Assembly: GCF_019933235.1 (NCBI RefSeq)
Contig: NZ_CP082945.1
Location: forward strand, 5,059,501 to 5,123,500
Origin: Streptomyces angustmyceticus
Lineage (GTDB): Bacteria; Actinomycetota; Actinomycetes; Streptomycetales; Streptomycetaceae
Reading direction: 5' to 3'
DNA length: 64,000 bases
Shown here: positions 9,716 to 46,038 of the stretch, in pieces
How positions within the stretch are numbered: position 1 is the first letter of the stretch
Layout of the letters: each line of letters begins with the position of its first letter
The notes under the pieces: generated by a model
What the model was told of the DNA's origin: nothing
Databases searched by the model: none
The model's input: only the letters and a program-made list of their open reading frames with translations
Made by a program: the position numbers and the translations under genes

Positions 9716-10082
9716 GGGGATGATCGGTTTCGACAGCGGATGTCGAAGCAGGGGAAGCGAGTCGAGGAAGCGGCAATGATCTCGTTAACCATATGTCGCA
9801 ACCAATAATCGCCAACACCAAGCGCGATTCCTTCGCCCTCGCTGCCTAAGTAGCGACTTGCGAAGTGTCAGCCCGGGGCTGTTCCCGACCCGGATCCTGG
9901 CATCAGCTAGGGAACTAAACTTCTAGACCCGGTCACGGGGTTTAGGAGGAAATCAAACAGTGGCTGAGCCCGTCGGAGACTTGTCCGCGTGATCTCCGGG
10001 GCCGAGAAAATCGCAGCGGACTGCACTCGGAGAAGCCCTGATTCCGCACCGTTGGACGCGGGTTCGATTCCCGCCATCTCCA
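9716..10082 (+). ncRNA. ssrA: tmRNA (ssrA)
   Basis: The tRNA-like ends pair as a 7-bp acceptor stem: GGGGATG (9716-9722) with CATCTCC (10075-10081). The T arm GGGTTCGATTCCC is next to it. The tag reading frame runs from 9811 to 9849 and encodes ANTKRDSFALAA followed by TAA; the ALAA end is the protease degron. CCA is not encoded after the discriminator A, so it must be added. At about 367 nt the length fits the family, and smpB is upstream. The 12-residue tag is shorter than the 16-residue S. coelicolor tag as remembered. Confidence 0.95.
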
Positions 10083-10223
10083 CTCATCCCATGTGAGGCC
10101 CAGGCCCCGTCTGTCCGGCAGGACAGCGGGGCCTGAGTCGTTTCCGCCCCCGGATTCCGCCGGGGGCCACTCTGTGCGCGGCCGAGCACGCCTGGCGGGC
10201 GGAGCGGCGGCAGGCGGTCCTGC

Positions 10224-45403: not shown

Positions 45404-45493
45404 CGTTCCGCTGTGCTTTGCTGCCGGCCCACGTGGCTGGCTTTCCCGCCGTTGCTCCCCCACTGCCTTAAGGGCGTGGGAGGTACCCCCACG

Positions 45494-45611
45494 CGGCGGG
45501 CGGGGTCCGCTGCGCGGGGCTGTGGGTGCGGTGACGGACCTCCGGGGCCTGGTGTGTGGACTGCTTCGCTTTACGTCCACACACCAGGCCCCTCCGGCCC
45601 GTCCCCTCCCG
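45494..45611 (+). repeat. Structured element copy A
   Basis: Conserved left flank (GGTCCGCTGCGCGGGGCTGT, then GGTGCGGTGACGG) leads to an 18-bp perfect stem (45544-45561 with 45575-45592) with loop TGCTTCGCTTTAC (45562-45574). The right flank is TCCGGCCCGTCCCCTCCCG. GGCTTTCCCGCCG at 45439-45451 is shared with copy B further out. Confidence 0.85.
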
Positions 45612-45770
45612 TGGGTGAGTGAAGTGATCGTGGGTGGGGGCGGGCGTCGATCACAGCCAATTCCCTGCGCCGCAGCCATTTCCCTATGCCCACGGCCGTT
45701 TCCCCACGCCCACAACGCGCACCGGACCACCGAGGTCCACCCCCACCGGCCTTCTTTCCACCCCCCTCAA

Positions 45771-45891
45771 CGGGAGGGGACGGGCCGGAGCGGGTGGGGT
45801 GCCGGACGTAAAGCGAAGCAGTCCGGCACCCCACCCGCGCAGGCCCGTCACCGCACCCCGACAGCCCCGCGCAGCGGACCCCGCCCGCCGC
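45771..45891 (-). repeat. Structured element copy B (inverted)
   Basis: Inverted copy of the element at 45494-45611. The flanks and the 13-nt loop (45808-45820) are the same when read on the minus strand. The 18-bp stem (45790-45807 with 45821-45838) has a different sequence that still pairs perfectly. The outer GGCTTTCCCGCCG is at 45949-45961 on the minus strand. Confidence 0.85.
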
Positions 45892-46038
45892 CAGGCGCCA
45901 CGCCGGGCGCACCCGCGCAGCGGGGCGAAACACGGCGAGCCCCCAGCACGGCGGGAAAGCCGACACCGTGGGACCCCGGCCAAGCGCAGCGGATAGGCTG
46001 ACGCGGTTGCCGATCGCCGACCCCAGCCGACGGAGACC

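Follow-up and report, generated by a model that had tools for sequence, protein, structure and literature searches.

In Streptomyces angustmyceticus, an MFS-like ORF and a helicase-like ORF are separated by a space that holds two inverted hairpins that carry one and the same loop on unlike stems, which raises the question of what kind of element they belong to and at which level, RNA or DNA, their structure is maintained. We analyzed the 64,000-nucleotide stretch that contains this locus (the window) together with related genomes. A repeat search of the window revealed that the space is occupied by a single inverted-repeat composite of ~590 bp (Table 1). The original prediction had described two inverted elements; the hairpins, A and B, are indeed present, but they are not separate, as both are arms of one composite. 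Its further statements on the architecture were borne out: both arms carry the 13-nt loop TGCTTCGCTTTAC and share their flanks, and an outer block, GGCTTTCCCGCCG, spans 45440-45452 and has an inverted mate (45948-45960). Both stems are perfect over 18 bp; 9 of the 18 positions differ between them, and each difference is compensated (9/9). Under each stem lies a symmetric 3-nt internal loop followed by a helix of ~8 bp. No shuffled sequence folded equally well, either when the hairpin regions A and B were folded as RNA (z = -4.2 and -5.8) or when they were folded as single-stranded DNA (z = -6.9 to -10.2). Hairpins A and B are not a product of chance. Within the element, Rfam gave no match at the gathering threshold, and the weak matches at relaxed thresholds were to hairpin-shaped microRNA models far below the cut-off; elsewhere in the window, a tmRNA gene was matched at 9716-10085 (+).

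Table 1. Parts of the composite element, in window positions.
Feature	Position	Strand	Remarks
Whole composite element	45407-45993	.	two inverted arms and central spacer; inverted repeats I1-I3
Outermost inverted repeat, TCCGCTGtGCTTtGC.../...GCcAAGCGCAGCGGA	ends of 45407-45993		
Left outer module, CCCACGTGGCTGGCTTTCCCGCCGTTG	45428-45454	+	starts 24 nt past the upstream stop codon
Optional mosaic module, CTCCCCCACTGCC...GGTACCCCCA	45456-45492	.	in some copies only (14-pair alignment)
Left inner flank, GCGGCGGGCGGGGTCCGCTGCGCGGGGCTGTGGG	45493-45526	+	holds small palindrome CCGC-TGC-GCGG; 97% complementary to 45858-45891
Hairpin A	45530-45606	+	lower helix, internal loop TCC/TCC, 18-bp stem 45544-45561/45575-45592
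Loop of A (13 nt)	45562-45574	+	complementary strand GTAAAGC-GAA-GCA, includes GCGAAGC
Central spacer	45613-45769	.	conserved across this genome's copies; differs in other species
Hairpin B	45776-45852	-	lower helix, internal loop TGC/TCC, 18-bp stem 45790-45807/45821-45838
Loop of B (13 nt)	45808-45820	-	same as loop of A
Right inner flank	45858-45891	-	mate of 45493-45526 (repeat search)
Right outer module	45944-45972	-	inverted mate of left outer module; inverted repeat I2

The loop 13-mer occurs in 41 exact copies in the 8.1-Mb S. angustmyceticus genome (G000; reversed control, 0). We grouped these into 27 loci, all of which lie within 2.25-6.99 Mb of 8.12 Mb; many are pairs of a + and then a - loop ~245 bp apart, often convergent and unlike, and 14 such pairs were aligned. 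The exact 21-nt tip was found in 8 of 199 Streptomyces genomes, the richest four of which hold 40 (G000), 49, 17 and 9 copies. A covariance model matched 14 of the 199, with copy counts that are lower bounds, as 21 candidates per genome were scored. Hosts among the matches listed include S. nigrescens, S. endophytica, S. noursei, S. lydicus and S. albospinus, and the occurrence of relatives is patchy, chiefly around S. lydicus, noursei, nigrescens and albospinus. The suggestion of a repeat family of the genus therefore holds for a dispersed family but not for a genus-wide one. Phage records that were searched gave no matches, and plasmid records gave partial matches in three Streptomyces records. 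We found no published description of this family in the literature searched, which covered few subscription journals. Three loci (L079, L084 and L093, in G174 and G129) gave weak model matches with loops of ~40 nt that enclose their own GCA- or GAA-capped palindrome and may be distant relatives. At locus L346 (G319) the outer module stands in about four tandem repeats adjoining the element, and at L035 (genome 6649200-6651800) a palindromic module of ~50 nt lies within one tip directly past the loop, that is, as a nested insertion into the hairpin.

The unlike stems are matched by covariation across the family, as the prediction of many copies with covarying stems had it. Among 28 aligned copies with an 18-bp stem, variation affected both partners in 12 of the 18 stem pairs and a single partner in none (one-sided cells, 0/700), and the covariation score was 0.443 compared to 0.101 for shuffled and at most 0.121 for slid alignments, in a sample that we selected for equal length and that is accordingly biased towards structure. 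In 91 distinct tips, from which 8 tips had been removed because pairing covered fewer than 11 of their 14 variable positions, 1238 of 1274 variable stem cells were Watson-Crick (97.2%), with 3 G.T and 10 A.C cells; these tips are not independent, because conversion relates them to one another. The unfiltered set of named genomes gave 942 of 994 cells Watson-Crick and 6 G.T. Selection on RNA from one strand should favor G.U over A.C, and since this pattern is absent, the data support upkeep of the palindrome at the DNA level or use of both strands, and do not single out DNA: G.T pairs would be purged by RNA selection on both strands as well. Complementarity is not restored immediately, since some chimeric, mismatched tips persist (L001, L023 and L037). 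The arms of these three are drawn from different tip types, and two of them resemble deletions between A and B that kept one loop.

We also examined the loops, which the original prediction had taken to be frozen. They are identical in A and B; across species they vary, almost entirely inside GNA or GNNA. On the complementary strand, the recognised loops were GTAAAGC-GAA-GCA (82), GCA (17), GACA (8, and one more with an altered flank) and GTCA (6), with three additional GAA loops that have a flank change, in a count that omits about a dozen rows representing misplaced matches of the script. Two single copies, GTAAAGCAAAGCA and GTAAAGCGAAGGA, are the exceptions to GNA/GNNA. In nearly all recognised tips the GAA, GCA, GACA and GTCA loops sit between GC and GC, and short tips in G137 and G391 read C-GAA-G and C-GGA-G. 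The internal loop on this strand is mostly GGA facing GGA or GCA, and internal loops of the GGA/GGA or GGA/GCA type form sheared G.A pairs. As single-stranded DNA, the GAA strand is predicted to be more stable by ~4 kcal/mol. DNA mini-hairpins with a GNA or GNNA loop and two or more G-C pairs have been described as extraordinarily stable (PMC4686876). Thus, of the two kinds of selection on a hairpin that had been proposed, as RNA or as single-stranded DNA, DNA or both strands are favored by the loops together with the few G.T cells.

Similar loops are found in Streptomyces telomere palindromes, in which sheared G:A pairs close the GCA loops of the foldback strand (PMC4513846); at the chromosome end of G064, the strand that was read carries TGC and TTC loops, which are GCA and GAA on the other strand. 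The elements described here differ in being internal, paired and dispersed, and membership of the telomeres is rejected by their position, with copies at 2.25-6.99 Mb and none at the chromosome end. Origin by telomere fusion is likewise rejected: judging by orientation, the 5'-to-3' direction of the GAA strand points away from the center, whereas a head-to-head fusion of telomeres would produce the opposite.

The placement of the loci relative to genes bears on an alternative in which the hairpins are elements of RNA 3' ends, that is, bidirectional terminators or stabilisers of mRNA ends selected as RNA on both strands. With genes called by a simple codon-usage script, none of the 27 loci (41 exact loops) falls within a gene; 14 are convergent, 12 codirectional and none divergent, with one unclassed. 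The intergenic baseline by bases (~464 kb) is 21% convergent, 58% codirectional and 21% divergent, giving P-values of 2.7×10−4 for convergent and 0.003 for divergent placement. At about 19 gene ends the outer module starts 0-29 nt past the stop codon; elsewhere it is farther off or unrecognised. Positions directly past stop codons, the excess between convergent genes and the fact that the element stands at the window locus where relatives have a short native spacer all speak for an RNA 3'-end element, and two-strand use would also forbid G.U, because its complement is A.C. Strong hairpins near a stop codon are shared with intrinsic terminators, and intergenic stem-loops in general favor gene 3' ends and convergent spaces (PMC1590033). 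Unlike intrinsic terminators, however, the element is a multi-hairpin composite with species-specific tips, and inspection revealed no T-run adjoining hairpin A or B. In addition, codirectional genes flank about half of the loci, and although transcription of only one strand is expected there, the tips are Watson-Crick at these loci too; GACA and GTCA loops are not GNRA; and termination needs neither two unlike arms, a long spacer nor a patchy distribution. On balance, we regard an RNA 3'-end element as possible but improbable.

Comparison of orthologous sites demonstrated both occupied and empty states. At the window site the element is present in G000 and G064 and related elements in G137, G194 and G391; a short native spacer is found in G373, G319, G415, G175, G336 and G290, and the element stands in place of the ~130-160 bp native spacer of related species. 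In a tree of the helicase gene, G000 and G064 grouped (support 80/75) beside G319, G373 and G415. Two further loci displayed full, internally deleted and half elements, unrelated genes or plain spacers. Repeated gain, loss and exchange between species may each underlie this pattern. No target duplication is readable at the window site and at two others for which empty sites exist, because the spacers have been replaced or have diverged. The proposed mobility is thus partly supported, insofar as loci are gained, lost and internally deleted, but a search with the Y1_Tnp profile found no transposase in G000, G064, G191, G175 or G137, and the spacers are too diverged to read a target duplication. 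At locus L033 (G000), several of the relatives' counterparts (L353, L354, L355 and L359, in G194, G191, G137 and G391) carry a reverse-strand ORF, glyoxalase-like by reading, where G000 has the element, which may mark a lost gene.

At least 19 of the 27 G000 loci have an occupied counterpart in other species, a lower bound on locus sharing that is silent on empty sites, as the orthologs were chosen for carrying the element. In these orthologous counterparts the tips are different and self-matched. Some 70-81% of tips recur at a further locus in their own genome, and 25-50% are identical to a tip of another genome, with the exception of S. nigrescens (88%); exact sharing is thus also high between closely related genomes. 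Of the 16 tips in S. nigrescens, 13 are the same, and its main tip is common to S. endophytica. Loci that are often common to several species, with tips that are mostly common within a genome, amount to concerted evolution. Near-identical copies in G000 have long inner blocks in common and differ outside them, which fits gene conversion. The two arms of an element nonetheless stay unlike: in the five genomes with at least five pairs, identical arms were found in 0 of 41 pairs, where random pairing would give about 5.7, and in each of the five the arms were less alike than random (P-values 0.0095 to 0.124). At one orthologous locus (L034 in comparison with L283), G000 and G064 have the A and B arms in opposite order, which looks like an inversion or replacement of the inner part.

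A different account of the turnover would treat tips as cassettes that an enzyme recognising a folded single strand, and not ordinary gene conversion, copies from site to site. Short and long tips do occur on the same base (in G137, 34 matches to the short tip GGAC-TTC-GTCC share the base of the long tip), at a shared orthologous locus and, in L282 of G137 and L346 of G319, on opposite arms of a single element. The identity blocks of near-identical copies, however, span the center and flanks too, as they would under plain gene conversion, and no candidate enzyme was found with the one profile tested, Y1_Tnp; we therefore consider copying by such an enzyme very unlikely. A broader version, in which tips are copied from one resident site to another by an activity that recognises the folded single strand with its GNA cap, and are so renewed genome-wide without a known transposase, appears to us unlikely.

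Among known systems, the closest resemblance is to the REP/BIME repeats of E. coli, Pseudomonas and Stenotrophomonas, which are likewise many-copy extragenic palindromes at gene 3' ends. As previously reported, REPs form extragenic, inverted hairpin pairs with species-specific hairpins and compensated stems (PMC2817692, PMC3733652), and REP heterodimers are known (PMC3733652). The present family is a dispersed extragenic palindrome (41 exact loops at 27 loci) of inverted, often unlike units (14 aligned pairs, 0/41 identical). It differs from REP/BIME in its Streptomyces host, in its much larger units (an 18-bp stem, a 13-nt loop and a lower helix in an element of ~590 bp) and in the tag: REPs of the GTAG or CGTC class have that tag unpaired at one hairpin end, whereas by eye the window copies show no GTAG at the base and have CGTC only within the lower helix, where it is paired. 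REP/BIME repeats are tied to a Y1 transposase. The Y1_Tnp profile (PF01797) had no match in G000, G064, G191, G175 and G137, with control genomes including E. coli positive; G194 had one match, and a genome that lacks the tip had two. A Y1 (RAYT-type) transposase is accordingly rejected as the driver, with no match in four of the five genomes richest in exact or modelled tips or in G137. The resemblance to REPs would itself favor mobilisation of a REPIN-like, non-autonomous element by a Y1 transposase of the RAYT/IS200-IS605 type; with neither the enzyme nor the GTAG tag found within the scope described, and a size several times that of usual REP pairs, we find such an origin hardly credible.

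Taken together, these results point, with a probability of roughly 0.6, to a REP/BIME-like dispersed family of DNA-hairpin repeats in one part of Streptomyces that is homogenised by recombination. Each full element is built of two unlike hairpins in inverted orientation, embedded among smaller palindromes that form a mosaic, and it lies in the 3' space that follows genes. The palindrome probably functions, or is maintained, at the level of DNA, where it would fold once single-stranded or supercoiled. Tips and inner parts would be homogenised through ectopic gene conversion among resident copies, and complementarity could be restored by arm-to-arm templated repair, by selection or by both. The host may tolerate the element or use it as a gene-end boundary, possibly ending transcription from both sides. 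A family comparable to REP/BIME, with unlike paired hairpins, is thus abundant in Streptomyces genomes in which the Y1 enzyme was not found. With its tips turning over under strict Watson-Crick restoration, the family provides a natural setting in which to ask whether selection or arm-to-arm repair maintains palindromes, and how repeats at shared sites evolve in concert.
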